From a virus, in the IMG/VR virus record IMGVR_UViG_3300002514_000061, positions 1 through 42,466 of that record: 42,466 nucleotides of DNA, one strand, 5' to 3'. The notes beneath the pieces are model-generated. The model saw nothing but the letters and a program-made list of their open reading frames with translations. It ran no database searches and had not been told where the DNA came from. The position numbers were made by a program, and so were the translations under genes. Positions 11,931-33,635 of the stretch are shown piece after piece (within the stretch, counting starts at the first letter, position 1; each line of letters starts with the position of its first letter).

Positions 11931-13056
11931 TGGCGGTGGGCCTACTCCCACCCCTACAAAAAGCACGGTTACACAGACAAGTCTGCCCGAATATGCGCAG
12001 CCTTATTATGAGGATCTATTAGATCGTGGCGTAACAGAGTCAAAGACTGATTATCAAACGTATGGCGGTCCTCGTATAGCTGGCTTCAACCCAACCCAGC
12101 AAGCCGGTTTTGATATGCAAGTAGGTTCTGCTACGGAAGCACCTACTGGCATGATGGATGCCAAGGACTATTACTCAGGAATTTTAAATAGGTCTTATCC
12201 TTCTCGAACTGGAGGGGGGAAACCGGGCCTTGGGGGGCGTCCTACTTTGCCTCCGGGTCGCTTTATGGAAGCTGTTGCAGGGGAAGCACCGCCATCTGGG
12301 GGTGAGCAAATGGATGCCTATGGAGTTTCTGGTGGTCAGAGAGGCCCTCGTGCGTTTCAGGCTCAGAACTACCAGAAGTTTGTTGGGGGGTATGACCCAT
12401 CAGAGTCCTATAAGGAATACATGGACCCGTACCTAGAGGATGTTCTTGGTCGTCAACGAACACGAGCCGACGAGATGTTTGCTGAACAGCAGCAGGCACG
12501 GACAGATCAAAGGATTGCAGCAGGAGGTCGCAGAGGCAGTCGCCGTTATGTCCAGCAGGCCTTGGAGCGTGATAAATATGAGCAACGCATGGGTGACCTA
12601 GAGGCCAAGCAAAGGTCTCAGGGGTATCTCTCGGCCCAACAACAGGCTAGGGACCAGTTCTTGCGTGATCGGCAGGCTCGTATGGATGCTGCAAAATTGG
12701 GGAGCGCCGATAGATTGTCGGAGGCTGGCTATGGTTTACAGGCTGCGGCTGCTGCTGCGGGAATTGATCCGCAGTTATTTGCCTTACAGCAGCAACAAGC
12801 TGGTGCGCTGCAAGGAGTGGGTGCTGCGGAGCAGAAGATGGATCAATCAAACCTTGATCTTGCTTATCAGGACTTCCTTAACCAGAGGGACTTTGATCGT
12901 AGACAGCTTCAGTTCTTGGCTGGCCTACTACAGGGTGTGCCTGTTACCCCTCAATCTGAGGTCTACCAGTATCAAGCCCCCGGATCATTTAGTGGTCAGA
13001 TGGCTGGTGCTGGTCTTGGTGGTTTGGGTCTGTACAAAATGCTTTCAGGATCGTAG
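11917..13056 (+). CDS. Internal virion protein, Gln/Ala-rich (gp14-like position)
   Basis: A 379-residue protein preceded by GGAG at 7 bases and overlapping the previous gene by 14 bases. The N-terminus contains TQTSLPEYAQPYYEDLLDRG and RIAGFNPTQQAGFDMQ, signatures common in marine podovirus internal virion proteins. The middle (about residues 180-290) is a long charged, Gln-rich helical region (EQQQARTDQRIAAGGRRGSR, then AQQQARDQFLRDRQARMDAA). The C-terminus is short, Gly-rich and hydrophobic (AGLGGLGLYKML). It sits between the GNAT-like protein and the hydrolase-bearing protein, the place of T7 gp14. A role in the ejected trans-envelope channel is inferred from synteny. Confidence 0.7.
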   Translation: MGKGSGGGPTPTPTKSTVTQTSLPEYAQPYYEDLLDRGVTESKTDYQTYGGPRIAGFNPTQQAGFDMQVGSATEAPTGMMDAKDYYSGILNRSYPSRTGGGKPGLGGRPTLPPGRFMEAVAGEAPPSGGEQMDAYGVSGGQRGPRAFQAQNYQKFVGGYDPSESYKEYMDPYLEDVLGRQRTRADEMFAEQQQARTDQRIAAGGRRGSRRYVQQALERDKYEQRMGDLEAKQRSQGYLSAQQQARDQFLRDRQARMDAAKLGSADRLSEAGYGLQAAAAAAGIDPQLFALQQQQAGALQGVGAAEQKMDQSNLDLAYQDFLNQRDFDRRQLQFLAGLLQGVPVTPQSEVYQYQAPGSFSGQMAGAGLGGLGLYKMLSGS

Positions 13057-13060
13057 GGCC

Positions 13061-15601
13061 ATGACAAATATTCTACAGATGCAGGAAATACTGAAGAGTA
13101 TTCCCGACCAGAGGCTTATGCAGGAAATGCAGGAGCCGACAGGACGTGCGCCCCAGTATCTGGTGATGACTGAGATCCAGCGGCGCAAGAAAGTTCGTGA
13201 CGAGTATCAGGGCCAAACGCAGGAACAACAAACAACCGTAGCAGAAGACATAGTGGGAGGGCCTCCTCCTCAACAGTCGTCCATGGCACCTCCGGGTATG
13301 CCGCCGCAGATGGCCCAAGGGATGCCGCCACAGATGCAGCCGCCCATGGCTGCGGCTCAACCTCCTATGAACATGGAGGGCGGCGGTGCTTTGTATATGC
13401 AGAAGGGGTCAAAAGCCTCTCAGTATTTCGGGGCTGTGGATTTGAACCGTTTGGTAAGTTTAGTCGAGGCAGAGGCAGGTAATCAAGATCTTGCGGGCAG
13501 ACGCGCAGTTGCTGCGGTGATCTTAAACAGAACGCTTTCTGATCAGTTCCCTGACACGATTCAGGCTGTGGCTGAACAAAGAACCCCCGGTGGAAGTTAC
13601 CAGTTTAGTCCTTTGATAAATGTAGGTGGTGATATAGATAAGTTGCCAGCAGGATCGGCGGGGACAAGGGCAGCGGTCCTTGAATTAATAGCAGATTTTG
13701 ACGGGAAGAATCCCGTCGGGGATGCGCTGTATTTTCAGAACCCTGAAATATCAGGGATGATCTTCCCTGCCCTGCGCGATTACTATGATAATGGCAAACG
13801 AAACAGTAAACCTTTCCCTGATGGAGTAACTAAGTATGGCGATCATATTTTCTCTGATCGTTACGGCAACGAAGAGACCGTTGCGCTTGAATCCGTGGCA
13901 TTTAGGGTAGAAGACAATGCGCTTACAGACGTAGACAAGAAACGCCTTGGTACTAATGAAGCACTGAAGATTACAGGCGCTGGCGAAGAAGTGATAATGG
14001 CAGAGTCTGAGCCTGCTCCTGTGCCCCCCTCAGCTTTTCGAGGCGGCATTGCAGGAATCCCCGAAAAGATAGCCGAGAGAACAGGCGGCTTCAGAGGCCC
14101 TTCCCTTGCTGAAACGCTACAGCAAGTATCCCCTGATGCCAGATTGAATGTAGCAGGGTATGATGCTGCTGCTTCTGCGGGTTCTGGCTTGCCCATTGGG
14201 GAGGTTCCCCCTCCCGCGCCTCGCCCTGATGTTGTTAAGCGTATGGGGGATATAGCTGCGGCTACAAATGCGGCCCAAATGGCTGAAGATCCTTTGGTTG
14301 CGTTCGGAGGATTAGGTGCAACGGGTAGTCAGGCCACCCCTTTCGTGCCTGACCCTAATGTGGTTAAGCGCCTGCAAGATATGGCTGCGGCTACAAATGC
14401 AGCGCAATCGGTTTCCCCAGACGCTAACCTTCCTGTGGCAGGGTATGATCCTGGTTTTGTCCCTGAGCCAACATTTGGAGATACGGTCAGCACTATGCTT
14501 GCTAGTGCTGTGCCTCCTCCTACTAAGAAAAGGGAAGAACTTTTTAGTGATCCCAAAAATTATTTAGTAGATCAGTACAAGCGCTTTGCTACGGAGCTTG
14601 CCGACAAAACTAGAGTAGCCCCTCAGTACGAAACAGCAGCCGCTTCTCCGGGTTCATTCGCTTTGGACTACGGCGATGACTACGCCTCAATACCCGCTGT
14701 TGACCAATTTGAGCCACCTCGTGCAACTGCATCTATTGATCCTATTCAAGCTCAATCTGCCGGGGCAAGCATACCTTCCGCAGGAGCAATGGAAGCGGCG
14801 TATCGTAAACATATCGAACGTCCGGCAGCGCCAGCAGGAGAAGAGGTAAAAGTTACTGATGATGTTATTGAGGCGCCGTCCGCAGCAAGTGGGACAGGCA
14901 CACCGACCGCCGCACCAACCGGCGGCATGGCAGACCTTCTCGCCCAGATACAGGCAGGGCGCGACGATGCCAAGGCTATGGGCCTACTCACTGCTGGTCT
15001 TGGGATCATGCAACAAGCCAGCCAGCCGGGAGCTACCTTGTTAAGCTCTATTCCCGGAGCAGCAGCAGGGGTCAAGCAGTACAGTGCGGATAAGGCTAAC
15101 CTTGCCAAGCAGCAGCTTGCTCTCGCCACCCTTGCCAATCAGCAAAGGGCGACAGAAATAGCGGCGGAAAAAGCAGCTACTGGAACTGACTTCAACCTTG
15201 GACGTACTCAGGCTTTGGCGGCTGTCAGGCGTAGTCCTAAGCTTTCTGCCAAATACCTAGATGCAGAAGGTCAGCCTACCCTTGCATTTGAAGAATATGC
15301 AGCACAAACATTTAGGAGCGCTTCTCCTTTAATAGAGCAAAGGACGTTACAGACAGAAGCTCTGGCCTACAAAAACTGGCTTGCTGGTCAAGGCAATATT
15401 GCACTAAAGACTAGACTGAAAATAAAAGCGGACGCGAAGGCGAACAATCAACCAGTGCCAAAAGGTAGTGCTCTTGAGGCTCTAGTAAATGAGGACATCA
15501 GGAAACAATACAATAAGTGGCGATCTGGAGTATTGGGCACTAACACAGGCACCAGAACAAAATCTCTATCGGCATATGAAACTAAGCAACCCGCTGGTTG
15601 A
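13061..15601 (+). CDS. Internal virion protein with SleB-like peptidoglycan hydrolase domain
   Basis: Starts at ATG 13061, four bases after the previous stop; an in-frame extension upstream lies inside the previous gene and is unlikely. 846 residues. After a Met/Pro-rich linker (about 60-105), residues 125-270 match a cell-wall hydrolase of the SleB/Hydrolase_2 type. LVEAEAGNQDLAG is followed by AVAAVILNRTLSDQFP, then QAVAEQ and QFSPL, and GDALYFQNP. E138 aligns with the catalytic Glu. The middle (about 340-480) has repeated short units (VVKRMGDIAAATNAAQ / VVKRLQDMAAATNAAQ; VSPDARLNVAGYD / VSPDANLPVAGYD). The C-terminus is Ala/Gln-rich helix. The hydrolase would open peptidoglycan during DNA entry, like the lytic domain of T7 gp16. 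Confidence 0.78.
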   Translation: MTNILQMQEILKSIPDQRLMQEMQEPTGRAPQYLVMTEIQRRKKVRDEYQGQTQEQQTTVAEDIVGGPPPQQSSMAPPGMPPQMAQGMPPQMQPPMAAAQPPMNMEGGGALYMQKGSKASQYFGAVDLNRLVSLVEAEAGNQDLAGRRAVAAVILNRTLSDQFPDTIQAVAEQRTPGGSYQFSPLINVGGDIDKLPAGSAGTRAAVLELIADFDGKNPVGDALYFQNPEISGMIFPALRDYYDNGKRNSKPFPDGVTKYGDHIFSDRYGNEETVALESVAFRVEDNALTDVDKKRLGTNEALKITGAGEEVIMAESEPAPVPPSAFRGGIAGIPEKIAERTGGFRGPSLAETLQQVSPDARLNVAGYDAAASAGSGLPIGEVPPPAPRPDVVKRMGDIAAATNAAQMAEDPLVAFGGLGATGSQATPFVPDPNVVKRLQDMAAATNAAQSVSPDANLPVAGYDPGFVPEPTFGDTVSTMLASAVPPPTKKREELFSDPKNYLVDQYKRFATELADKTRVAPQYETAAASPGSFALDYGDDYASIPAVDQFEPPRATASIDPIQAQSAGASIPSAGAMEAAYRKHIERPAAPAGEEVKVTDDVIEAPSAASGTGTPTAAPTGGMADLLAQIQAGRDDAKAMGLLTAGLGIMQQASQPGATLLSSIPGAAAGVKQYSADKANLAKQQLALATLANQQRATEIAAEKAATGTDFNLGRTQALAAVRRSPKLSAKYLDAEGQPTLAFEEYAAQTFRSASPLIEQRTLQTEALAYKNWLAGQGNIALKTRLKIKADAKANNQPVPKGSALEALVNEDIRKQYNKWRSGVLGTNTGTRTKSLSAYETKQPAG

Positions 15602-23920: not shown

Positions 23921-24370
23921 ATGTTAAGTTTGCTCGGGTCCCTATTGGGATTTGGTACTTCTTTCCTGCCGAAGGTCATGGATTTCTTCCAAGACCGGTC
24001 AGATAAGAAGCATGAACTAGCGGTAATGGAAGTTCAAATACGTCAGCAGAAAGAACTAGCTGATCAAAAGTTGGAGATGGTCAATGTGGAAGCAGATGTA
24101 CGAGAGATGGAATCTCTTCACAAGTCTATGCAGCCTACGGGCGTGGCGTTTATCGACGGCCTTCGTGGTTCTGTTCGTCCTGTTATCACTTATGCTTTCT
24201 TCGGGCTGTTCATTTTTGTTGAAGTATCCGCTTATCTCGCACTCACTTCCCAAGGAGTATCTGGATTGGACGCGGCCAACGCTGTCTGGTCTGAAGAAAC
24301 CTCAGCACTGTTTGCCGCCGTCATTAGTTTCTGGTTCGGCGGACGCGCCATCTCCCGTGCCAGAAAATGA
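23921..24370 (+). CDS. Holin, GTA-type three-TM family
   Basis: A 149-residue membrane protein preceded by AGGAGATAGGT. A hydrophobic N-terminal segment (LLGSLLGFGTSFLPKVM) is followed by a charged coiled helix (about 25-70; HELAVMEVQIRQQKELADQK). Then come GLRGSVRPVITYAFFGLFIF, a further hydrophobic stretch to about residue 115, and a final hydrophobic segment ending FWFGGRAISRARK. The charged helix, VRP-x-I-T and closing W/Y-F-G-x-R form the pattern of the GTA_holin_3TM family. It would permeabilise the inner membrane at lysis. It overlaps the lysozyme gene by four bases (ATGA), the usual holin-endolysin coupling. Confidence 0.82.
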   Translation: MLSLLGSLLGFGTSFLPKVMDFFQDRSDKKHELAVMEVQIRQQKELADQKLEMVNVEADVREMESLHKSMQPTGVAFIDGLRGSVRPVITYAFFGLFIFVEVSAYLALTSQGVSGLDAANAVWSEETSALFAAVISFWFGGRAISRARK

Positions 24371-24822
24371 GGATCAATGCGCGAGGGATGCAGATAATAA
24401 AGCTCTTTGAAGGCTTTCGCTCTGAGCCGTATCTGTGTTCCGCGATGGTTGCCACCATTGGGTTTGGTTCTACTTGGTCCTTTGATGGCAGTCGTGTCAC
24501 CTTATCTCACCCGCCGATTGATGAAGCAGAGGCCGAGGAGCTACTTCTACGAGAGGTCCGTAAGTGCGAGAAGGCGGTAGATCGGCTGATCAAAGTCGAA
24601 TTAAATCGCAATGAACACTCTGCTCTCCAGAGCTTCGTATATAATTTAGGCAGCGGTCGGCTACAGTCTAGTACCTTAAGATCCCTCTTGAACAGGAATG
24701 CTCCTAGAGAAAGAATTGCAGATGAGTTCCCTAAGTGGCGAAGAGCCGGGGGCAAAATATTACAGGGCCTAGTCAGAAGACGGGCGGCAGAGAGAGCTTT
24801 GTTTCTGTACGAAGGAGACTGA
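24367..24822 (+). CDS. Endolysin, GH24 lysozyme with E-8aa-C-5aa-T active site
   Basis: A 151-residue muramidase of the phage lysozyme (GH24) family, normal length for a single-domain enzyme. The N-terminus reads IKLFEGFRSEPYLCSAMVAT. E15, C24 and T30 have exactly the spacing E-8-[D/C]-5-T known for this family, here with the cysteine variant in place of the T4-type aspartate. The helical C-terminal lobe contains ALQSFVYNLGSG (about 96-107) and FPKWRRAGGKILQGLVRRRA, a family signature. No signal or SAR anchor is visible, so export should depend on the adjacent holin. It cleaves the glycan strands of peptidoglycan. Confidence 0.92.
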   Translation: MRINARGMQIIKLFEGFRSEPYLCSAMVATIGFGSTWSFDGSRVTLSHPPIDEAEAEELLLREVRKCEKAVDRLIKVELNRNEHSALQSFVYNLGSGRLQSSTLRSLLNRNAPRERIADEFPKWRRAGGKILQGLVRRRAAERALFLYEGD

Positions 24823-24823
24823 T

Positions 24824-25177
24824 ATGGAAGTGGATGCGAGGCTAGGCATACAGGCGGCGATCATGTTAGCCACGATTGCTGGGGGGTATGCGGTTGTTAA
24901 GGCCCAACTACAGCGTGTCATCTCTGATCTGGTTGATCACATAAAGAAGTTTGAGAAACATAAGTCAGCGTTCGATGCCCGACTTGATGATGCGGAGTCC
25001 CAGAGAAGTGTGTTCGCTAGTCAGATATCCACGCTTATTGATATCAATAGTGTGTCTGCTTTGGAGCGGCGCAACAGGGAGATGGCTACGTTGCAGGCGG
25101 AAGTTAAAGTGTTGCAGGCTCAGATCCAGCACCTAAATGATATACACAATTCAAAGCATCCAGAGACAAGCAAGTAG
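24824..25177 (+). CDS. N-terminally anchored coiled-coil protein (possible i-spanin-like)
   Basis: A 117-residue protein one base after the lysozyme stop, with GGAG 7 bases before the ATG. One N-terminal hydrophobic segment (AAIMLATIAGGYAVVKA, about residues 11-27) is followed by a predicted coiled coil to about residue 105, with heptad-like Leu/Val/Ile spacing (SALERRNREMATLQAEVKVL). This topology and its place after holin and lysozyme resemble inner-membrane spanins, but no matching outer-membrane lipoprotein is clear next to it. It may instead be another membrane-anchored coiled-coil protein of unknown role. Confidence 0.7.
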   Translation: MEVDARLGIQAAIMLATIAGGYAVVKAQLQRVISDLVDHIKKFEKHKSAFDARLDDAESQRSVFASQISTLIDINSVSALERRNREMATLQAEVKVLQAQIQHLNDIHNSKHPETSK

Positions 25178-25186
25178 GAGACTCGC

Positions 25187-25309
25187 ATGGACACAATACT
25201 AAAGTGGTGGGAGAACACCTTCGGCGGCAACAATGCAATATGGAATATAGACTATGGTAAAATCATTATCATTGCTCTGCTTGTGTATCATATTTTCTTT
25301 CAGTCCTAG
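25187..25309 (+). CDS. 40-residue single-TM protein overlapping the next gene's signal peptide
   Basis: A short frame with an excellent ribosome binding site (AGGAG, six bases before the ATG). It encodes a polar N-terminus with three Trp residues (ILKWWENTFGGNNAIWN) and a C-terminal transmembrane segment (YGKIIIIALLVYHIFF), ending two residues later. The last 56 bases overlap, in another frame, the start and signal peptide of the next gene. Strong RBS, sensible membrane topology and a position in the lysis cassette support it. It could be a small lysis accessory or antiholin-like peptide; function unknown. Confidence 0.68.
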   Translation: MDTILKWWENTFGGNNAIWNIDYGKIIIIALLVYHIFFQS

Positions 25310-25559
25310 TAGTGCAGTAGCTACAGAGAAGGTGTTTGCTGGCTGGATACTTCATATGTTCATTAGCGGACAACTCAAGGAGTACACCCCACGAGGTGGG
25401 ATGACTGAGTGCCTGAAGGTAAAGCGGAAGATTCTGCGTAGTCAGGGCCATTCGGTTGGCACCCGTTGGGAATGTGCCAGGGGTAAACTTGTTCTCCGTG
25501 AATACTCAGCAGGGAAGGACGGAAACAAGTGGTTGCCCGTGGAGCACTTGGGTAAGTAG
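25254..25559 (+). CDS. Small secreted protein with signal peptide
   Basis: A 101-residue protein with a classical signal peptide (MVKSLSLLCLCIIFSFSPSS, then AVA before TEKV, giving cleavage near residue 23). No convincing lipobox is present, so it is probably periplasmic and soluble. The mature part is small and basic, with two cysteines (TECLKVKRKIL and TRWECARGKLVLRE) that could form a disulfide. Its start is embedded in the preceding small TM gene. The family is not recognised; lysis cassette membership suggests an envelope role. Confidence 0.68.
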   Translation: MVKSLSLLCLCIIFSFSPSSAVATEKVFAGWILHMFISGQLKEYTPRGGMTECLKVKRKILRSQGHSVGTRWECARGKLVLREYSAGKDGNKWLPVEHLGK

Positions 25560-25561
25560 TT

Positions 25562-26035
25562 ATGGCTGAAGAGCGGGGCAGGAGAGACAGCGACCAGCTA
25601 AAGATAAGCGATAGCTCTGCCATCTCTATGCCTGTTCGCAATCTTCTGTCGATTGTCGCTGCTGTATCTGTCGGGGTGTGGGCTTTCTTCGGAGTGCAAG
25701 AGCGCTTGAATAAGCTGGAAACTTTCGAGCAGCTTATCCGTAAGGATCTTGAGACAGGCTTGAAGGAACTGAAGACAGAGCTAGGAAAGAACAGTGAGTT
25801 CCGTATCAAGTGGCCTCGTGGGGAACTGGGTCAGGCCTCTGCTGATCAGGAGCAGTACCTGTTAATAGAGCATCTGAGCGGTCAGGTAGAGAAGATACAA
25901 ACGCGCATTGAAGAGGGCATGAGTAACGGCGTCAACATCAAGCGACTACAAGAAGACGTTAAGACGTTAAGAACTGATGTGGAAACATTAAAGGATAAGC
26001 AGCGTGGCCTGTTAAGCAGCGGGACAGGAGGCTAG
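25562..26035 (+). CDS. Membrane-anchored coiled-coil protein, conserved-looking, function unknown
   Basis: A 157-residue protein whose start follows the previous stop by two bases. A charged N-terminus (about 25 residues) precedes one TM segment (LLSIVAAVSVGVWAFFGVQE, about 28-47). A linker then contains FRIKWPRGELGQASADQEQY (about 80-99), and the C-terminal coiled coil follows (VEKIQTRIEEGMSNG to ETLKDKQRG). I recall closely similar membrane proteins with a 'FRIKWPRGELG' block in marine phages of unknown role. Possible functions are lysis control, virion membrane attachment or exclusion. No enzymatic motif is seen. Confidence 0.7.
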   Translation: MAEERGRRDSDQLKISDSSAISMPVRNLLSIVAAVSVGVWAFFGVQERLNKLETFEQLIRKDLETGLKELKTELGKNSEFRIKWPRGELGQASADQEQYLLIEHLSGQVEKIQTRIEEGMSNGVNIKRLQEDVKTLRTDVETLKDKQRGLLSSGTGG

Positions 26036-26036
26036 C

Positions 26037-26570
26037 ATGGACCCCATCACAATAGCAGCCGCCATTGCAGCCACCAAAACGCTAGTGAAATCGGCACGGG
26101 GTGTCCAAGAGATTGCGCACGGTATTGACGGACTGTTCCATGCCAAAGAGGCGCATGAGAAAAATAAAGACCACGAAGCTGGTAGCTCAATCGGCAAAAA
26201 GAATAAATCAATTCTTCAAAAGCGCGCTAAGGATGACGGCTCCGAAACTTCTATGTCTGCCAGTGCCGCAGCCATCATCGAACGCAAGCAATTGGATCAG
26301 CAGCTTGAGGACCTCAAGACCGAAATCAATCGTAAATGGCCGAGCGCTCCTAACGAGCCGACGACTTGGGATCTTATCCTAAAGGAACGTGAAAAGCGGG
26401 TTGCCGAAAAGAAAGAGCGCGAGAGGCTCGAAAAGATTGAGGCCGAAGAACGTGCGGAACGGCGTAAGAAACTTTTGCTTGAGCTTGCCAAGGGTTTGAT
26501 CGTTGCGGCCATTGCGGGGGGCATTGGTACGTTCCTCTACTGGGCCGCGCAGCACGGGGGCAGTGCCTAG
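26037..26570 (+). CDS. Highly charged helical protein with C-terminal TM anchor
   Basis: A 177-residue protein starting after GGAGGCTAGC. An Ala-rich N-terminal helix (ITIAAAIAATKTLVKSARGV) leads into a strongly charged middle, including a long Glu/Lys/Arg helix (about 118-150; REKRVAEKKERERLEKIEAE). A C-terminal TM segment (about 152-170; LIVAAIAGGIGTFLYWAA) closes it. It is the last rightward gene of the lysis/structural block. Its stop TAG shares the bases CTAG with the stop of the convergent leftward gene. Function unknown; tail-anchored membrane protein by topology. Confidence 0.72.
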   Translation: MDPITIAAAIAATKTLVKSARGVQEIAHGIDGLFHAKEAHEKNKDHEAGSSIGKKNKSILQKRAKDDGSETSMSASAAAIIERKQLDQQLEDLKTEINRKWPSAPNEPTTWDLILKEREKRVAEKKERERLEKIEAEERAERRKKLLLELAKGLIVAAIAGGIGTFLYWAAQHGGSA

Positions 26571-26725
26571 CTGTCCAACTCTATTCGCCCCACACCACCA
26601 CACTCTATACATATGACCTCGAACTCTTCAATGGAGGGGAAGGCAAACCTGTCGCCTGTGTGTGTCAGCCGAGTGGCTTCCACTATGACGTGGCCTTCTC
26701 CCTCACAATTGGTGCAAGTCCTCAT
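26567..26725 (-). CDS. 52-residue DnaJ-like zinc ribbon protein
   Basis: A small leftward frame starting 17 bases after the LPP20 gene stop. A good ribosome binding site (AGGAAGAG) lies about 6 bases before the ATG. It has two CxxC knuckles in the DnaJ cysteine-rich style, C4-T-N-C7 followed by EGEGHV and C39-I-E-C42 followed by GGVGRI, separated by about 30 residues. The four cysteines should bind one zinc ion. It is the final gene of the leftward early operon. Function unknown; possible roles are protein-protein or RNA contacts. Confidence 0.72.
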   Translation of the reverse strand: MRTCTNCEGEGHVIVEATRLTHTGDRFAFPSIEEFEVICIECGGVGRIELDS

Positions 26726-26742
26726 CCGTGACTCTTCCTCGC

Positions 26743-27348
26743 TCAAAGCGTTTCCTTCCGCAATCTTTCTGCGTCCAGTTCTTTATAGCCTTCCTTGGCT
26801 GCGTCTCCGCTGCGCCTAGAATTTGTTCGCTGCTTGTAAAGCTGCAACAGTTCGTTGGCCTCACCTACGGGGTAGGTCAGGAGAACATACACCCGAAAGA
26901 AAGTATTGTGGGGAAGTATCTCCATCTCCTTCACGCTGTACCCTGCCACGTTCACCTCGCGCATGATGTTCTTGGTTACGCGCTCCGTGTCTTGCAACGT
27001 GGGCGGGGCCATGCCCTTCCCAGTTTCCGTGACGTAGTTCTTCACCTGAGAACTCAGCCGCCCTTCAATGCGGTCAGCCAGTGTACGCTTGGCGTTCAAG
27101 ATGCTCTTGTCGATTGCCAGTTGCAGATCGGGGGATGTCCCGCTGCCTACTGAGTGGATAGCGTTCTCCGATTGGGGCAGTTCAGTGAACCAATCAGGTA
27201 GCTCCTCAATGGTATTTGATATCATCTCCCGACGCTGCTCGCGCTTTTCTTCCTGTTTCTTGAGGAAGGCTTCTGGAGATCCGGGCTTTGGTGTTGAGCA
27301 CCCCCCCAAGATCGCAATCAAACATGCAGTTCCAATTTGTTTTCTCAT
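26743..27348 (-). CDS. LPP20-family outer-membrane lipoprotein
   Basis: A 201-residue lipoprotein. The N-terminus has a signal with lipobox LGGC (cysteine at residue 17), so it should be lipid-anchored in the envelope of a Gram-negative host. The body matches the LPP20 pattern: an early ELPDWFTELPQSENAIHSVG, then DLQLAIDKSILNAKRTLADR with alternating Ala, and a late strand (TFFRVYVLLTYPVGEANELL). The residue after the lipid Cys is Ser, which favours outer-membrane sorting. It lies late in the leftward recombination operon. A phage-encoded LPP20 protein suggests host surface remodelling or exclusion of other phages, which is inference. Confidence 0.8.
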   Translation of the reverse strand: MRKQIGTACLIAILGGCSTPKPGSPEAFLKKQEEKREQRREMISNTIEELPDWFTELPQSENAIHSVGSGTSPDLQLAIDKSILNAKRTLADRIEGRLSSQVKNYVTETGKGMAPPTLQDTERVTKNIMREVNVAGYSVKEMEILPHNTFFRVYVLLTYPVGEANELLQLYKQRTNSRRSGDAAKEGYKELDAERLRKETL

Positions 27349-27551
27349 CCCTGTTTCTCCTCATCATCCTTCTCAAGCGCTTTGTTTGCTAGCATGGCAT
27401 AAAACTCCACGCCCTCACTAACAGCCGCAATGTCCCGTATCTCTGTCAACGCCTCGCGCAAGGCAGCAATGCGCCGCAATGCTGGACCTGATTCTTCCAC
27501 AGCAAACCTCCTGTTAAATGCTTCCATAAACTCGTGATAGATGTCACTCAT
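27345..27551 (-). CDS. Small helical protein, unknown
   Basis: A 68-residue all-helix-looking protein (ALRRIAALREALTEIRDIAA) rich in Glu, Ala and Arg. It overlaps the upstream gene and the downstream LPP20 gene by four bases each, so it belongs to the operon and is probably translationally coupled. No family recognised and no signal or membrane segment. Confidence 0.6.
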   Translation of the reverse strand: MSDIYHEFMEAFNRRFAVEESGPALRRIAALREALTEIRDIAAVSEGVEFYAMLANKALEKDDEEKQG

Positions 27552-28867
27552 ATCGCTTTCTTTTTAACATGCTTGGACCCGCGCCAGTTGCTGTCACCCT
27601 TGGTCAGTTCGTAATCGTGAGTGATGACTCCCAGCGCTGGATCACCACGGTGGCAGGACGTGCGCCACACCCGCTTCTTGGATTTCTTAATGAACATCCA
27701 ATGCCCACGCACCTCATGGTATCGGCGCTGAGTCTTGGACTCCGCGAAGCTCTTCATAGTAACTTCGACTCCACGGTTCTTCGGCAGATCAATGGAGATC
27801 ACATGGTAGGCGTTGCCTTTCACGTAGCTACCCCATTGCCGCCGTGAGCCTTGCATGCGCTGGGTGGGTTCTTTGACTATCCAATCGTGATTGAGGAGCG
27901 CCATGACCGTAAGGATAAATCGTGGGTCACCCTCGCATACACTCATTCCTAGCCTAGAAACTTTACGCAAGTCATCAGCATTAAATCCTGACTCTGTGTT
28001 GATAAGCCAGTGTACGGCGTGAGTTTGAATAGGTCGAATGTGACCGATCAAAGCCATCACATCTGATGGAACCTCATCTTCTTTATACTTACCATGCTCG
28101 CCCCATTTTCCCGGTGATATCTTCCCAGACCACCACCAATCTGATAATATATTTAAGGTCCCGGATGTATCGTTGGAATTAAGTTTTTCCAGTTCCTCTT
28201 GTGTAGGAATGCGCCCCAAGAACGAGGCCCCTCGCATCCTGTCTTCTTCTTTGGTGTAACCCGTTTCCATCTTCACGGTAAATCCAATTGGACTTCCCAT
28301 GAGTATCTCTGGACTGTCAGGACCCTCGCTAGCCACATAAAAACATTGACCGACAAGGTAGGGAGATTCCATACGAGGGCCACCATCTAAGGGTGCGGTA
28401 CGACCCAGTGTAGCCCTGTAGCCCACGATCTGATTAGGATCAGCAACATGATAGCCCACGCGCCGTGCTTGGCTCTGGTGCAAAGGCCCGTTAGGCCCCT
28501 CATCTAAAAATTTTTTTGATCTCTCTATTATCTCTGGTTGAAACCTGTCGGGGTGATCAGCGATAGTCTGGCTTATCGCTTCAACTCTCGTGATCTCATC
28601 CCATTCAATCCAGTTGTTAGGGAACGGGCATCTGACATAGTTCCTAATGAGGCTGATGCACTGCTCCGGTGTGATGAGTGTTGCCATCCTTGCGGCGAAT
28701 TGAACAAGCTCATCGTCCAGCACAAACTTTCTTGATGAGCGAACGGCATCACGCACTATCCGCATCGCTTCCTTTGCGGTGCTTGTGCGAAACTGATGAG
28801 CCAACCCCCGCTTGGGGTTCCCCATCACAGCAATCAAATCGTCTGCAAGTGTGAAGTCCGGTTCCAT
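27548..28867 (-). CDS. 439-residue phage protein of unknown function with C-terminal HEVRGHW motif
   Basis: A 439-residue soluble-looking protein between two envelope genes. The N-terminal half is helical (TAKEAMRIVRDAVRSSRKFV). The C-terminal part contains QRRYHEVRGHWMFIKKSKKR, then TSCHRGDPALGVITHDYEL (about residues 382-420). I recall this 'HxVRGHWR...H.RGD..LG.v..dY.v' pattern from other marine phage proteins without assigned function. The conserved His and Cys suggest a metal site or nucleic-acid contact, but no enzyme class can be named. It starts 11 bases after the preceding gene, with a good AAGGAGGGAG before the ATG. Confidence 0.6.
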   Translation of the reverse strand: MEPDFTLADDLIAVMGNPKRGLAHQFRTSTAKEAMRIVRDAVRSSRKFVLDDELVQFAARMATLITPEQCISLIRNYVRCPFPNNWIEWDEITRVEAISQTIADHPDRFQPEIIERSKKFLDEGPNGPLHQSQARRVGYHVADPNQIVGYRATLGRTAPLDGGPRMESPYLVGQCFYVASEGPDSPEILMGSPIGFTVKMETGYTKEEDRMRGASFLGRIPTQEELEKLNSNDTSGTLNILSDWWWSGKISPGKWGEHGKYKEDEVPSDVMALIGHIRPIQTHAVHWLINTESGFNADDLRKVSRLGMSVCEGDPRFILTVMALLNHDWIVKEPTQRMQGSRRQWGSYVKGNAYHVISIDLPKNRGVEVTMKSFAESKTQRRYHEVRGHWMFIKKSKKRVWRTSCHRGDPALGVITHDYELTKGDSNWRGSKHVKKKAI

Positions 28868-28878
28868 GGTCTCCCTCC

Positions 28879-29682
28879 TTATCTAACTAAGCGGTATGCC
28901 TTCCTCACATAGCGCTTCTGGTTGTTCGGTATCTCCATTAGCTTCAAGTTAAAGTCTTCGATGGAGTATTCCTCTAGCAGTGCTAGCTTCTGCGGCGTCG
29001 TAAGGACGTGGATCACTTCCTCTATCTCATTCCCTGACAAGTCGGCAGGAAACCTAGCTACTATGGAATACTTATCCCCGATTGGGATTGGAGTTCTCCC
29101 TGTGATCTTACTATCTAGGTCAAACTCATTCGGAAAGATCAGCGTTAGTTTGTTCTCGTGATCCTCCAATAGAATGTTGACAAACATTTCTTGTGTCGGG
29201 TCCACGGTGATGACCAGCGGATCGCCATCTCGAAGCAGGGGATGAGACAGGTCCACCCGCACGTCGAAGTTCGGATCGGATGGTTCTGATCTTGAGGTGA
29301 CCCGTGCTTCCAGTATTACTCTGCACACTCTTTGGTCCCGTAGGTTCTCCGTCACCCTTACTGTTCGGTCACGGATGCCACTGATGAGACCGTCCAACAT
29401 CGACCAAGTGAAGGTGTGGATCGGGCAGTTGACCCTATCACCCTCTTCCTGACACGACATGAATGTATCTGATGAGACGTACTCCCCACTAAATGACTGA
29501 ATAGCATTGAGCTTTGCTCTGCTCTCTGCCTTCCGACAGGCTTCCGCTTCTGTGATCTCAGAATGAATCACATAGTCACCCTTGCCGTAGACCCATTCAT
29601 CAAAGACCATGGGCTGTGCATCTGGTGTGTTAAGATCTAACACCAGACGCAACAGCCCTATTCCGACACTCAGATATTCCAT
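28879..29682 (-). CDS. FlgT-N/LPP20-like plus DUF4384-like envelope protein
   Basis: 267 residues. A short hydrophobic N-terminus (YLSVGIGLLRLVLDL) may be a signal peptide, although a weak one. Residues about 25-130 resemble the FlgT-N/LPP20-type domain ('acting on a string of Ala': ITEAEACRKAESRAKLNAIQ, with paired cysteines in FMSCQEEGDRVNC). Residues about 150-240 look like DUF4384: DGDPLVITVDPTQEMFVNIL, then LTLIFPNEFDLDSKITG, and IPIGD. In bacteria, DUF4384 and LPP20-type proteins occur together in envelope or flagellar-base contexts. A second LPP20-family gene sits two genes downstream. It overlaps the upstream HTH gene by 13 bases. Confidence 0.68.
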   Translation of the reverse strand: MEYLSVGIGLLRLVLDLNTPDAQPMVFDEWVYGKGDYVIHSEITEAEACRKAESRAKLNAIQSFSGEYVSSDTFMSCQEEGDRVNCPIHTFTWSMLDGLISGIRDRTVRVTENLRDQRVCRVILEARVTSRSEPSDPNFDVRVDLSHPLLRDGDPLVITVDPTQEMFVNILLEDHENKLTLIFPNEFDLDSKITGRTPIPIGDKYSIVARFPADLSGNEIEEVIHVLTTPQKLALLEEYSIEDFNLKLMEIPNNQKRYVRKAYRLVR

Positions 29683-29897
29683 GGCAGTTCCATCTGAGCC
29701 GGTGGCTTAATAAAGTATCTCGCCACGGTCTTCCCTTTCGGTGTTACGTGAGGCTCGGTCTCAACCGCAATACCTTTGGCACGTATGTCTGCAATCCGCG
29801 CCGCCAACCTGAGGCACCCAAAATTACTGAGTGCCTCAAGCGGTGTGATGGCGTGCCCTGCGTTCAGCCACTCAAGAATGTCAGATGTTTGGCTCAT
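29670..29897 (-). CDS. Small winged-helix/HTH protein (HTH_39-like)
   Basis: A 75-residue protein (start at the second of two adjacent ATGs, 29897, because of spacing from GGGAGAGG; the first is 29900). The pattern ILEWLNAGHAITPLEALSNF, then GCLRLAARIADIRAKG and a beta wing (TPKGKTVARYFI) fits the small HTH_39 winged-helix family found in phage early regions. Probably a DNA-binding regulator of early genes. It overlaps both neighbours. Confidence 0.75.
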   Translation of the reverse strand: MSQTSDILEWLNAGHAITPLEALSNFGCLRLAARIADIRAKGIAVETEPHVTPKGKTVARYFIKPPAQMELPWNI

Positions 29898-30096
29898 CAT
29901 CCTCTCCCTTGAACGCTTGGTGATTGATCACAAAGTCTTCAATGACCTGTCGAAACAGGGTTGCCGACGTGACGTTCTGACTTGCCGATAGAAGGCGCAT
30001 GGCCTCCAGAAGATTGTTGGGCATCAGTACGCTGTATTTGGTGAACTCACCCTTGAGTTTCGCGGGACGGTTCAGCAGACTGTTTGAGTCACTCAT
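29881..30096 (-). CDS. Ribbon-helix-helix-like small regulator
   Basis: 71 residues from ATG 30096, which has AAAGGAATAG upstream; an ATG 24 bases earlier is a less likely start. The sequence TKYSVLMPNNLLEAMRLLSA followed by NVTSATLFRQVIEDFVINHQ has the strand-helix-helix layout of RHH/CopG-type DNA-binding proteins. Likely a dimeric DNA-binding repressor. It overlaps the adjacent genes (8 and 17 bases), consistent with one operon. Confidence 0.65.
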   Translation of the reverse strand: MSDSNSLLNRPAKLKGEFTKYSVLMPNNLLEAMRLLSASQNVTSATLFRQVIEDFVINHQAFKGEDDEPNI

Positions 30097-30544
30097 TGCT
30101 ATTCCTTTCGTAGGCTTCACGGATTTCTTTGAACTTTCTCTGAGCCGACTTGTTCTCTTTCAGTTCAGACAACGAGCCGACATTGAGAGCGAAGCGCAAA
30201 CGATCTCGTGTTTGCTCCTCCTCGCTCTCGTCTGGGGTGGGAAGCGGCGCGTCGTTCGCCTCTCCCCATGCGCTCATGTAGAATTGGAACGCTGGTTCAC
30301 GGCAGACAATCGACGCCGCCGCCACAAGGTTGACCTCCTTAGGTGCAACCGGTTCATCATGGTCATCTAGCTCGACCATCGCTACGCCGAAGCGTGTCGC
30401 AGTTGTGTGGGAGAGTAGCCCCACAGGTACGTCATTGGGATGGATCAGCAGCTTGATCACTACCCCTGATTGCGCCTTCATGTTATTCACCACGCTATGA
30501 AGCTGCGCTTCAAAGCTGAATGTGGCATCACGAATCTCTGTCAT
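30089..30544 (-). CDS. Unknown phage protein in recombination cluster
   Basis: 151 residues from ATG 30544; a longer frame to 30622 runs through the HNH gene and is not needed. The N-terminal half (TFSFEAQLHSVVNNMKAQSG, then IKLLIHPNDVPVGLLSHTTA and RFGVAMVELDD) resembles a small domain I recall near phage recombinases, with the wording 'ihp.D.P..ll....GtR..va..eld'. The C-terminal part is charged helix. Function unknown; its context of annealing protein, SSB-like and HNH suggests DNA metabolism. Confidence 0.6.
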   Translation of the reverse strand: MTEIRDATFSFEAQLHSVVNNMKAQSGVVIKLLIHPNDVPVGLLSHTTATRFGVAMVELDDHDEPVAPKEVNLVAAASIVCREPAFQFYMSAWGEANDAPLPTPDESEEEQTRDRLRFALNVGSLSELKENKSAQRKFKEIREAYERNSNE

Positions 30545-30830
30545 CGTTCCACTCCCTCCAGCATTTCTCAGCCCACTGAATTGGGTTGCGGTCCACGATC
30601 TCCCAGTATTTCTTCTCGTCACCCTTCATGTGGAGCATGTGGTGACAAGACCGACAGAGCGGAACTACCCAGTTGTCTCCGACTTTCTTACCCATCGCAT
30701 TGGGTTCGGCGTAAGTGACGTGATGAGCGTCACCACACCACGGCGTTCTGCACGCCAGACATGGCAGTTGGCGAACGTGAGCAAGATACTTCTTGTCACG
30801 GACGCGCTGCCGTTTGAAGTTAGAGATCAT
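30528..30830 (-). CDS. HNH-type nuclease, YbcO/DUF968-like
   Basis: 100 residues from ATG 30830. A longer frame upstream to 30968 encodes a Leu/Arg-rich stretch antisense to normal coding and is rejected. Zinc-binding C24-L-A-C27, then D35-H36-H37 and a second C59-R-S-C62-H63-H64 with later H67, follow the HNH/YbcO pattern (gkK..D.wvVPLC..CHh.lH). The C-terminal NPIQWAEKCWREW is also family-like. Predicted to be a DNA nuclease acting in recombination or branch processing, alongside RusA encoded on the other strand. Confidence 0.8.
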   Translation of the reverse strand: MISNFKRQRVRDKKYLAHVRQLPCLACRTPWCGDAHHVTYAEPNAMGKKVGDNWVVPLCRSCHHMLHMKGDEKKYWEIVDRNPIQWAEKCWREWNDDRDS

Positions 30831-31152
30831 CGAAATCAATAATCTCAGAGGACTGCTCCTCAACAACCGGCGCAGGAGCCGCAGCAGGAGCTTCCCCACG
30901 GCGCGGAGGATACTGAGTGCCACCTCCACCGCCCTGTTCTTTAACTTTGTTAATTTTAATTTGAACATATTCGGTTCCGTTTTTGGTGCGCTTGACCTCG
31001 CCGTTCATAAAGAGTGTGACGTTCTCGCCGGTTGCATTGAAGGCCGCAACGAGTGTGTCGATGTCTTCCTTGCGAAAGCTGATGTCACCGGACCAAGCCT
31101 TCCACGACTCATGCTTGCCACCACGGTTGTCGAAAAGATTTCCAATCGCCAT
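30820..31152 (-). CDS. Putative ssDNA-binding-like protein with acidic C-terminal tail
   Basis: 110 residues. The first 70 are beta-rich (SWKAWSGDISFRKEDIDTLV, ENVTLFMNGEVKRTKNGTEY). A Gly-rich and Pro/Ala-rich linker follows, and then a tail ending EIIDFDDL, which resembles the acidic tip that single-stranded DNA-binding proteins use to recruit partners. It is not a classical OB-fold SSB by sequence. The start overlaps the upstream annealing protein stop (TAATG). Role inferred: SSB-like partner of the annealing protein. Confidence 0.6.
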   Translation of the reverse strand: MAIGNLFDNRGGKHESWKAWSGDISFRKEDIDTLVAAFNATGENVTLFMNGEVKRTKNGTEYVQIKINKVKEQGGGGGTQYPPRRGEAPAAAPAPVVEEQSSEIIDFDDL

Positions 31153-32006
31153 TAGTTATTCTCCTTGCTGAGATCAGCTTTTCGCTGACTGATCTGTGTG
31201 ATGTGAATGTGCTTCTTCAGTTCTGCACTATGTGAGTTCGCAATTGACTTGAAGAGAACCACGTTCTCCGTCGTGAACTTCTGCAATGCCTCAAGGCCCA
31301 AGGTCTTGAGGATAGCCGGGAAGTGTTTGTTCACGTAGGCTTCCTGATCTGTCAGGGAACAATCCCCAGGGAACACGAACTTCAGCGTGTCAACATCATC
31401 GAACCCATGGATGAGGTTGGCATCGCCGTCATAAACATTTTCATATCCATCGGTTTCGCTGACAGTTTCGAGTGTCGCGCCAAGCTCTTCTTCCACAGCC
31501 TTGACCACGGGGTTCTCCTTGGCTTCCTCCACCACCGACTTGGCTTTTGGTTTGGGCTGCGGTGCTGGTTGCTCTGGCTTATCTTGTGGGGTGTAGTCCT
31601 CAAGATCTTCACCAGCGTAGATATGAAACCCAAGGCCGTGGTATCCAATGGCCTTGGTCATGCACCGTTGCAGCGCGGTGTTCACCTGAAACGAATCGGG
31701 ATCGACCACTGGCTTGTTGTTGTTGTTGAGGACCGGGAGGATTTCTGTGATGTCCAACCCTTCAACACTGACTGTAACCTTGACGTATGCAAAGCCATGA
31801 GTGTCACGAGTATACGGAACCATGGCTCCGTCGAGATCAAAAAAATGTTTCTCAAATGTGGCGCTGGGGAACTTATCTTTGAGTGCGCCCCATGCCCACG
31901 CCCACGACAGGTAATCAAGATTACCTTTCGTCTGGCGGTGCTTGTCCACCTCTACCTTCACCTCATTGTCGGTTAAGGTTTCCCATGCGGTTTTCTTATT
32001 CGCCAT
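31152..32006 (-). CDS. DUF1071 single-strand annealing recombinase (Rad52/RecT-like)
   Basis: 284 residues from ATG 32006, which has GGAG 9 bases upstream and overlaps the preceding stop (TGATG). The signature region LDYLSWAWAWGALKDKFPSA, then HGFAYVKVTVSVEG, LPVLNNNNKPV, and VNTALQRCMTKAIGYHGLGF with IYAGEDLED (about 30-147), is diagnostic for DUF1071. That family is regarded as phage single-strand annealing protein related to Sak/Rad52. A proline-rich linker separates a C-terminal charged domain. It should anneal complementary strands in recombination-dependent replication, with the Cas4-like nuclease two genes upstream. Confidence 0.85.
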   Translation of the reverse strand: MANKKTAWETLTDNEVKVEVDKHRQTKGNLDYLSWAWAWGALKDKFPSATFEKHFFDLDGAMVPYTRDTHGFAYVKVTVSVEGLDITEILPVLNNNNKPVVDPDSFQVNTALQRCMTKAIGYHGLGFHIYAGEDLEDYTPQDKPEQPAPQPKPKAKSVVEEAKENPVVKAVEEELGATLETVSETDGYENVYDGDANLIHGFDDVDTLKFVFPGDCSLTDQEAYVNKHFPAILKTLGLEALQKFTTENVVLFKSIANSHSAELKKHIHITQISQRKADLSKENN

Positions 32007-32359
32007 CAGTTGCTGCTCCAGAAAGATTTCAATCGTCTCCACCATTTTCTCGTGGAGGGTTCCTCAGTAATAGCGTTCGAGATGTTCAGCCGCTGCGGGT
32101 TTTTTAGTTGGCTTGCAATGAGTGCATCCATCGCCCCCATTGATTCTGTGATGGGTTTCTCAATGGGCACCTCAGCCTTGATCTCAAACGCCTCAGGATT
32201 TTCTTTCCGGTGATCACGAATAATTTTGCGGGCGTGATTGACGGAGATGCTAAAGGACTGAGCCAGCCCTTCAGCGATATACTTCCTTCCCATGCTCTTT
32301 TGAGCTATGTAGTTCTCGACCAGTAGCCGATCCCTCACGATTTTATCTGCCTTCTTCAC
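32006..32359 (-). CDS. Small HTH-type protein of the recombination operon
   Basis: 117 residues. I prefer a GTG start at 32359 because it has a very strong ribosome binding site (GGAGGAAGG, 3-6 bases upstream) and overlaps the preceding stop (GTGA); the ATG at 32386 would lie inside the upstream gene. The N-terminal part, RDRLLVENYIAQKSMGRKYI and SFSISVNHARKIIRDHRKEN, has helix-turn-helix character. The C-terminus is basic. Probably a DNA-binding partner; family not firmly recognised. Confidence 0.62.
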   Translation of the reverse strand: MKKADKIVRDRLLVENYIAQKSMGRKYIAEGLAQSFSISVNHARKIIRDHRKENPEAFEIKAEVPIEKPITESMGAMDALIASQLKNPQRLNISNAITEEPSTRKWWRRLKSFWSSN

Positions 32360-33243
32360 GATCCTTCCTCCATATGTTGAGTACAAAATTTAGCCACGTC
32401 GCAGTAGCGTTGACAGCGCAGCGGTTCCGCTGGCCGGTGTTCAACAACCCATTTAGGATTGCCCGTCTTAAATTCTTTGGCCTCATCTTCTGTGTCGAAA
32501 ACCCGTTTGGCACGGGCACTATCGGCAGTGGCCTTGACTGCCCACTTGCCCCCCCTCTTCCAGCGCTCTTCGTCAGTGCAGAGAGGCAACGAGTCGAGGG
32601 CATCAAGGGTAACCTCAGCACCAAGGTGGGCCTGTACACGGCTCTCAAGCCACGCCAGACGCTCTTCCTTGGACCATATGGGTATGTCCACGATCACCAC
32701 AGGCGCATCAGGGTAATCAGCCTGACGATCTGCTTGTGCTGAGGAGTGGTCCCTGAGAATTGCGCAGATGGATAGCCGCGTGACAGGCAAGCCTTTGTTC
32801 TCCTCGACTAGGTGAGCGTAAGCGTTCAACTGTTCGGTCCACGAGGGCAGTGAGAATGAGTTCGGCATGGCAGAAATTGCACGGGTCACCTTGTAATCCA
32901 TGATCTCAATGCCGAAGTCGGTGATCTCTTGAATATCAATCGCGCCAGAGATCGTCTGCCCAGAAACCTCTGCGCTGAGACGCTCTTCTTTAATGATGGC
33001 GTTCGATCCCGCATCCCCGTCCTCTAAGATCGTATGCACAGCGGAACCGAAAAGTTTCCAAAAGGAATCCGACACGTCCTCCTCAAGCTCCTTCCAATGC
33101 TTCTTGGTCAGGAGGGCAATACGAGGTGGCTTCTGTAAGCCCGTCACGCTCATCCACGCATCGCCCTTACTGTACCGCGCTTGCGAAACCTTGAGGGCGT
33201 CGGCTATAGTGGACGGCAAGTTCTTTTTGTTAGTAATCTTCAT
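32356..33243 (-). CDS. PD-(D/E)XK nuclease, Cas4/exonuclease-like
   Basis: 295 residues from ATG 33243 (GGGAGAAGAG immediately upstream). The active-site set H70 (GSAVH), D103 (SGAIDIQ), D116-Y-K118 (GIEIMDYKVTR) matches the H-D-(D/E)xK of Cas4/AddB-type nucleases. A C-terminal CQRYCDVAKFC (C-x3-C-x5-C), plus an upstream cysteine in LPLCTDEERW, could hold an iron-sulfur cluster. It is the first gene of the leftward operon, and with the annealing protein makes a two-component exonuclease-annealase recombination system. Confidence 0.82.
   Translation of the reverse strand: MKITNKKNLPSTIADALKVSQARYSKGDAWMSVTGLQKPPRIALLTKKHWKELEEDVSDSFWKLFGSAVHTILEDGDAGSNAIIKEERLSAEVSGQTISGAIDIQEITDFGIEIMDYKVTRAISAMPNSFSLPSWTEQLNAYAHLVEENKGLPVTRLSICAILRDHSSAQADRQADYPDAPVVIVDIPIWSKEERLAWLESRVQAHLGAEVTLDALDSLPLCTDEERWKRGGKWAVKATADSARAKRVFDTEDEAKEFKTGNPKWVVEHRPAEPLRCQRYCDVAKFCTQHMEEGS
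33181..33210 (+). promoter_or_regulatory. Candidate rightward promoter of the RusA-primase cassette
   Basis: TTGCGA (33181-33186), an 18-base spacer, then TATAGT (33205-33210), a 5/6 match to TATAAT. It lies inside the 5' end of the leftward nuclease gene and about 75 bases upstream of the RusA start. Its transcript would overlap the leftward one. Weak -35, so only a candidate. Confidence 0.35.
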
Positions 33244-33262
33244 CTCTCTTCTCCCGTAGGCA

Positions 33263-33291
33263 GAAATAGGATGGCCTGTTCGGAATGTCAA
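33263..33291 (-). promoter_or_regulatory. Candidate sigma70-like leftward promoter of the recombination operon
   Basis: On the minus strand, a perfect TTGACA (33291-33286) is followed after 17 bases by TATTTC (33268-33263). A start around 33256 would give a short leader of about 13 bases to the ATG at 33243 with its GGGAGAAGAG. The -35 covers the start codon of the opposite RusA gene. The -10 is only a partial match, so this is a candidate. Confidence 0.45.
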
Positions 33292-33635
33292 CAATTAAAT
33301 TCACGGCCTTAGGAGAACCCGCATCGAAGTCGAACAGCCGCCGGATTGTTTTTAATGGCTCACGCCCACGAGTGATCAAGTCTGCGAAGGCTTTGAATTA
33401 TGTGAAGACGTTTCAACTGCAATGCCCTCGCCTTGATCCGCTGCTGGAGGGCGACCTCAAGATTGATATGACTATTTACTACGCGACACGGCGTCCAGAC
33501 TTGGACGAATCGGTGGTGCTCGACGCAATGCAAGACCTGATTTATAAGAATGATCGGCAGATAAAAGAGAAACATATCTGTTGGGGGCTGGACCGGGACA
33601 ACCCCCGTGTCGAGATCGAAATCAATGCGCGGTGA
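33285..33635 (+). CDS. rusA: RusA-family Holliday junction resolvase
   Basis: 116 residues, the usual RusA length. Motifs: SKSNSRRIVFNGSRPRVIKS near the N-terminus, then YYATRRPDLDESVVLDAMQD with D72 and D74, and KNDRQIKEKHICWGLDRDNP with D90. These three aspartates correspond to the metal-binding catalytic set of RusA. It cuts four-way junctions in phage recombination. It is the first gene of a rightward cassette that faces away from the recombination operon, and its start region overlaps the candidate leftward promoter. Confidence 0.88.
   Translation: MSTIKFTALGEPASKSNSRRIVFNGSRPRVIKSAKALNYVKTFQLQCPRLDPLLEGDLKIDMTIYYATRRPDLDESVVLDAMQDLIYKNDRQIKEKHICWGLDRDNPRVEIEINAR

Follow-up and report, generated by a model that had tools for sequence, protein, structure and literature searches.

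A conserved LPP20-DUF4384 gene pair in a phage recombination operon, shared with a bacterial operon for exported proteases

Introduction

Phage envelope proteins that cause superinfection exclusion include T5 Llp, phi80 Cor and T4 Imm/Sp. Here we analyzed a 42,466-nucleotide stretch of viral DNA (positions 1 to 42,466 of IMG/VR record IMGVR_UViG_3300002514_000061; hereafter the window), in which an LPP20-family lipoprotein and a DUF4384 protein are encoded in one minus-strand recombination operon. Like those exclusion proteins and P22 SieA (PMC10883804), the pair would represent phage-encoded envelope proteins in the infected or lysogenic cell, whereas no search revealed homology of the pair to Llp, Cor, Imm/Sp or SieA, and exclusion by the pair is only hypothesised here.

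The LPP20 protein shares with Helicobacter pylori Lpp20 (HP1456) and HP1454 the LPP20 profile, the lipobox and a predicted SHS2-type fold; in contrast to them, it has an additional C-terminal helix, an insert between helix and strand, and a nearly constant DUF4384 partner. FlgP-type proteins build rings at the outer membrane, and in their fold family the ability to form rings is reported to be associated with residues inserted after the SHS2 helix, before the second strand (PMC12222027). The phage pair resembles the rings of Campylobacter FlgP and Vibrio FlgT in its predicted SHS2-type fold and perhaps in an insert at that position, modelled with low confidence, but it has neither a flagellar context nor FlgT Pfam domains, and it has bacterial relatives without flagellar genes.

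Pelagiphages carry a CsgF-CsgG curli, or type VIII secretion system (T8SS), module (PMC7029224, PMC9004378, PMC9599517). It likewise consists of envelope genes of aquatic phages, and some phages have both the module and LPP20, but it differs in the late promoter motif that csgF has in HTVC008M and is absent from the window. Neither LPP20 nor DUF4384 is mentioned in PMC7029224 and PMC9599517, nor is LPP20 in PMC9004378, where DUF4384 was not searched for. A bacterial operon for exported caspase- and trypsin-domain proteins holds the same two proteins side by side, whereas the phages lack its TPR-trypsin and caspase genes. No paper describing the LPP20-DUF4384 pair was found among open-access papers, so this absence is not proof; both families are known, but the pair as a unit appears to be undescribed, with a distinct composition and origin.

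Results

Identity of the two proteins

An earlier note on this DNA had read the two genes as an LPP20 lipoprotein and a DUF4384/FlgT-N-like protein. Both genes are present:

26743..27348, minus strand: LPP20-family lipoprotein, 201 aa; lipobox LGGC (Cys17), SHS2-like domain at about 60-162, insert at 110-137, C-terminal helix at 163-200
28879..29682, minus strand: DUF4384 protein, 267 aa; hydrophobic helix at 2-17, SHS2/FlgP-like domain at 28-129, Ig-like DUF4384 domain at 141-266

In the profile search, the 201-aa product reached 25.9 bits against PF02169 (E 1.3e-5). Since this score only equals the curated cut-off of 25.9, the LPP20 assignment is borderline by sequence alone; the assignment was upheld together with the lipobox Cys17, which is invariant in an alignment of 36 relatives, and with the best structural match given below. 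The DUF4384 assignment held as well, the 267-aa product scoring 31.6 bits against PF14326 (cut-off 27, E 1.7e-7). The same profile was matched in 13 related records, and a DUF4384-named protein from an uncultured phage is present among public viral models. The likeness to FlgT-N found no support by profile, neither protein matching the Pfam domains FlgT_N, FlgT_M or FlgT_C at E <= 1, but the N-terminal domain of the DUF4384 protein is predicted to be SHS2/FlgP-like. A PHROG search gave no significant match for either protein. Four cysteines of the DUF4384 protein (49, 77, 86 and 120) do not vary among 22 relatives from phages and bacteria, a pattern suggestive of an oxidising compartment, and the N-termini of the bacterial homologues are Sec-like signal sequences; because of these two features, we regard the DUF4384 protein as probably periplasmic.

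The AF2 model of the LPP20 protein (pLDDT 70.5) comprises a strand (63-72), a long helix, the insert, two strands (138-147 and 150-160) and the C-terminal helix. Its best solved match by VIA was H. pylori Lpp20 (5ok8_A; Z 9.2, root-mean-square deviation 3.5, 96 residues aligned), followed by HP1454 (Z 8.3) and then by Tip-alpha; SHS2 proteins, dodecins among them, matched more weakly. In the DUF4384 model (pLDDT 80.6), a helix at the N-terminus is followed by an SHS2-type domain (about 28-129) and an Ig-like domain, and its top PDB match by Foldseek was 9hmf_A, a chain from the flagellar periplasmic scaffold of C. jejuni (E 2.6e-3, probability 1.00). The 106 residues of this chain fit the 11.5-kDa FlgP described in PMC12222027, pointing to FlgP, and the match, for which Foldseek printed no ranges, presumably belongs to the N-terminal domain. 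VIA-align of the DUF4384 model returned Ig-like matches only, all for residues 133-267, with Z values mostly of 7-9 and 9.4 at best; this fold is common, and the list covers the Ig-like part without probing the N-terminal domain. Sequence searches of the PDB with the single proteins and with both alignments gave chance matches only, so that the evidence for the folds rests on the models.

Conservation of the pair in phages and bacteria

LPP20 patterns alone, run against 84,980 genomes of bacteria and archaea, picked out six bacterial relatives, and a DUF4384 protein was encoded beside LPP20 on the same strand in all six. Searching from the other side, with the DUF4384 profile in 300 Polynucleobacter-order and 385 Terasakiella-class genomes, gave three new strong hits, each adjoined by LPP20; a weaker DUF4384 hit examined in G056 had no LPP20 alongside. 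Among viral contigs, the pair was found in the group of the window (about 14 contigs) and in L021, L043, L049/L050, L053, L058/L059, L061 and L085/L086. The phages concerned are unrelated: the window group, L021, the T4-like groups of L058, L061 and L085, L043, and the cultured phage Melnitz, in which an SHS2-like protein precedes LPP20 (best E 2.3e-15 with widened profiles). A partner lies within 2.5 kb of LPP20 in 26 of the 60 contigs that have at least 1.2 kb flanking LPP20 on both sides. The profiles detected no partner in T4-like phages of the HTVC008M/Mosig type or in L015/L016, L052 and L092. In L015, the gene right after LPP20 encodes a secreted 209-aa protein whose likeness to the SHS2 part is visible by eye but unsupported by profiles. 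By tblastn, the DUF4384 proteins of the window, L103 and L061 had no relatives in isolate phages, and the Terasakiella DUF4384 protein likewise gave no match in a scan of viruses.

Distances in the LPP20 and DUF4384 families were correlated in a mirror-tree comparison (r=0.94), with the bacterial rows placed between phage groups. Any two co-inherited genes would be expected to give such a correlation, which shows that the pair is transferred together but not that the proteins interact physically. The pairing is not due to chance, because it is conserved across unrelated phages and bacteria; the check for the pair in other phages, proposed in the earlier note, thus turned out positive.

The bacterial version of the pair

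In the bacterial loci, exported protease genes stand beside the pair, and DUF4384 precedes LPP20 as in the phages. Trypsin-domain proteins, mostly with TPRs, are encoded in L098, L099, L102, L103 and L114; caspase-domain proteins, whose N-termini are of TPR, Sel1 or lipoprotein type, in L098, L102, L103 and L113. L098 and L099 also encode a TPR protein resembling GNA1162, with a match above the cut-off in the former and below it in the latter. No trypsin or caspase match was obtained in 21 phage records, several of which are fragments. These comparisons show that the phage pair shares ancestry with the bacterial protease operon, although identity between the window and bacterial proteins is low, at about 29-36% for DUF4384 and 32-43% for LPP20. 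Fusions of trypsin, pseudo-orthocaspase and DUF4384 have been reported in alphaproteobacteria (PMC6426788). PADLOC has no model for the pair, and we found no published name for the exported caspase/trypsin-DUF4384-LPP20 operon of Terasakiella, Polynucleobacter and metagenome-assembled genomes. We regard this sporadic operon (L098, L099, L102, L103, L113, L114) as a candidate envelope stress or defence system.

Flagellar rod genes were absent from three of nine pair-bearing bacterial genomes, and in the alphaproteobacterial genomes in which both were located, rod genes and pair lay on different contigs. CsgG was absent from eight of the nine.

Two bacterial loci deserve separate mention. In G074 (L113 9912-12999), a caspase-DUF4384-LPP20 operon directly follows genes read by eye as tolA-tolB-pal-cpoB and is followed by a two-partner-secretion ShlB gene, neighbours that hint at a connection with outer-membrane integrity. 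In G434 (L114 2642-3262), two open reading frames together make up the LPP20 gene, which is frameshifted, interrupted or misassembled.

Genomic neighbourhood in the window

The pair sits at the end of a minus-strand operon that begins with a PD-(D/E)XK exonuclease and Sak and converges on an endolysin module; it lies outside the structural and lysis modules. The neighbouring features are:

29881..33294, minus strand: upstream part of the operon, with the PD-(D/E)XK exonuclease, a 126-aa protein, the Sak annealing protein, a 110-aa SSB-like protein (a context label only), an HNH/DUF968 protein, a phrog_10379-type protein and an Arc-like protein (weak match)
29670..29900, minus strand: HTH_39 winged-helix protein (PF14090, E 2.4e-12), directly upstream of DUF4384 and overlapping it
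27548..28867, minus strand: 439-aa protein, a variable insert present in the window and L006 and absent in L005
27345..27551, minus strand: 68-aa protein with a 4-base overlap with LPP20; its homologues adjoin the pair in several relatives
26567..26746, minus strand: DnaJ-type CxxCxGxG zinc-finger-like protein, 59 aa, the last gene of the operon, with a 4-base overlap with LPP20; its homologues follow the pair in relatives
23921..26570, plus strand: convergent lysis-side module with a 149-aa membrane protein, an endolysin (24367-24822) and coiled-coil/transmembrane and secreted small proteins

Consecutive genes of the operon overlap by 1-149 bases or are separated by gaps of at most 11 bases. 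The earlier note had described a phage recombination operon, and the exonuclease, Sak and DUF968/HNH genes, tightly overlapping on the same strand as the pair, agree with that description. It had also put two small genes between the pair; there are two, but with products of 68 and 439 aa they are not both small. The 439-aa gene is absent in most close relatives, so that the pair is there adjacent or nearly so. The pairs of L005 and L006 are 98-99% identical to that of the window, and no relative of the 439-aa gene was found among isolate phages. This gene may have been gained or lost recently at a hotspot of accessory genes; at the next junction, L008 4542-5558 reads as a DNA methyltransferase.

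On the lysis side, the endolysin matched phrog_7 (E 1.1e-48). A two-component spanin, with a small outer-membrane lipoprotein adjoining an i-spanin in the lysis cassette, was considered and rejected, LPP20 being a folded 201-aa protein of the recombination operon, which runs opposite to the lysis genes. The lysis-side proteins at 25562-26035 and 25254-25559 have homologues side by side in T4-like contigs (L023 2112-2701 and L026 2117-2706) and form another small membrane/secreted pair common to different phage groups. Elsewhere on the plus strand, 12665-15601 encodes a 978-aa protein whose residues 274-363 form a Hydrolase_2 cell-wall hydrolase domain and which is probably a peptidoglycan hydrolase carried in the virion; the adjacent proteins of 528-3662 and 3664-5397 share DUF7483 (E 8e-87 and 7e-64), a tandem duplication of tail-fibre type.

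Timing of expression

Of 20 loci, mostly T4-like, 19 lack the late-promoter motif [TCA]ATAAATA in the 1.5 kb upstream; in the exception it lay 1.47 kb away. As a positive control, HTVC008M carries the motif at -13 of the baseplate wedge gene, the DNA end-protector gene and csgF (L116 7549-8887, TATAAATA), whereas its LPP20 gene lacks it. Because the motif stands at csgF exactly as at the baseplate wedge and DNA end-protector genes, the genes for the curli pore of pelagiphages are probably expressed late, as one set. Consensus-like sigma70 sites were found just upstream in L025 (12/12), L085/L086 (11/12), and L004 and L061 (10/12); as evidence for early timing they are supporting, not decisive. 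The claim that the pair lies with early genes is thus supported by the exonuclease/Sak operon, by T4-like relatives without a late motif and by the sites of host-promoter type in some of them. Membership of the operon is strongly supported, and from this genomic evidence we infer the early timing itself.

Discussion

We tentatively propose that the LPP20 and DUF4384 proteins form one early module that alters the outer membrane and periplasm, with superinfection exclusion or protection of the envelope as its most plausible purpose. The two genes would be expressed in one transcription-type unit with early genes. Judging from its lipobox and family, the LPP20 protein would be an exported protein with a lipid at Cys17 that anchors it to the inner leaflet of the outer membrane. 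The DUF4384 protein, to judge from its homologues and conserved Cys, would be its periplasmic partner with a predicted Ig-like binding domain. Given the predicted SHS2-type folds of both, the pair might assemble beneath the outer membrane into a patch or ring, and the altered envelope might, during phage replication, keep competing phages from entering or stabilise the outer membrane of the infected cell. Both the localisation and the complex formation are what we infer. Superinfection exclusion is plausible by analogy, and a role in envelope protection is reasonable because in H. pylori a ring of outer-membrane lipoprotein that accompanies the flagellar disk is linked to barrier function (PMC11756786).

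Several observations weigh against this proposal. HTVC008M/Mosig-type phages keep LPP20 without a recognisable partner. The sigma70-like sites occur in five of 22 AT-rich loci, against a background of about 5-12% of 150-base windows, and a promoter scan of the window operon recognised none, with sites no more frequent than in shuffled sequence. The N-terminus of the window DUF4384 protein (MEYLSVGIGLLRLVLDL) is hydrophobic without the positive n-region of a classical signal peptide, so that its export is only putative. The 28-residue insert of LPP20, between the helix and the second strand, is of low confidence, as are the hairpin-type strands predicted at 68-95 of DUF4384 between the helix and the second long strand (pLDDT about 57-67); because the inserts are low-confidence in both models, ring formation by the pair stays hypothetical. 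The AF2 models are monomers and show no assembly.

The best-surviving alternative, itself unlikely, is that the pair are lysis helpers, which weaken or time the disruption of outer membrane and peptidoglycan late in infection, replacing spanins or acting beside them. The convergence of the operon on the endolysin module is consistent with such a role, as are Hydrolase_2 genes near the pair: Sec-like, SleB-like genes stand between the pair in L041 (7376-7816) and directly after LPP20 in Melnitz (L002 6627-7154), and Hydrolase_2 genes with Sec-like N-termini lie within about 4 kb in L043, L049 and L058. A lysis role has also been proposed for the CsgG pore of Melnitz (PMC9004378). However, the pair is on the opposite strand to the lysis genes, within the recombination-gene unit, late promoters are lacking in T4-like relatives, a folded 201-aa LPP20 protein is unlike a small o-spanin, and bacteria hold the pair on their chromosomes.

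Ranking behind it, and also doubtful, is a counter-defence outside the cytoplasm, in which the phage uses captured non-enzymatic subunits of the bacterial caspase/trypsin operon as decoys that block or re-route periplasmic proteases. The exported TPR/Sel1-caspase and/or TPR-trypsin proteins encoded next to the bacterial pair, their absence from the 21 phage records, the alphaproteobacterial DUF4384 fusions (PMC6426788) and the resemblance of the caspase and trypsin domains to PADLOC models of defence proteins would fit. Against it stand the sporadic occurrence of the operon in bacteria (three strong hits each in the 300 and 385 genomes) and the low identity between window and bacterial proteins; the presence of the operon in the hosts of Melnitz and HTVC008M and its role in defence are both only putative.

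A function as accessory to the phage curli/T8SS pore CsgG is disfavoured and very improbable. CsgG and LPP20 co-occur in Melnitz, HTVC008M and contigs G016, G018 and G020, but where one phage has both, the genes are about 10 kb or more apart; CsgG (PF03783) is lacking from the 42-kb window, possibly an incomplete record, and from its close relatives, and HTVC008M has the late motif at csgF and not at LPP20. Curli secretion is unlikely because eight of the nine pair-bearing bacteria have no CsgG. Still more remote is flagellar interference through FlgP/FlgT mimicry, which the earlier note had suggested from the protein families and which the SHS2/FlgP-like folds would permit: it is unlikely because three pair-bearing bacteria have no flagellar rod genes, and the rod genes of the others checked are on other contigs, no FlgT domain profile matched, and the bacterial context is a caspase/trypsin operon. 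The SAR11 hosts of HTVC008M and Mosig are not known to be flagellated, which we also count against it. Least probable of all is that the two are late virion or structural proteins, the possibility against which the earlier note had set its own reading: a non-significant hit of LPP20 to the minor tail family phrog_2683 (E 0.47) is outweighed by the operon position, the promoter data, the lipobox and the chromosomal homologues in bacteria.

Envelope modification in lytic infection is known from few model phages, and a two-gene cassette of unrelated marine and freshwater phages, held in common with a bacterial protease operon, offers a concrete, testable system. The pair links 'hypothetical proteins' of the cultured phages Melnitz, HTVC008M and Mosig to a named fold. 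The promoter comparison sets the pair apart from the phage curli pore, and a probably late curli pore in HTVC008M bears on published proposals for the role of that pore. Finally, the link to the bacterial operon raises the question of whether phages interfere with periplasmic caspase/trypsin systems.

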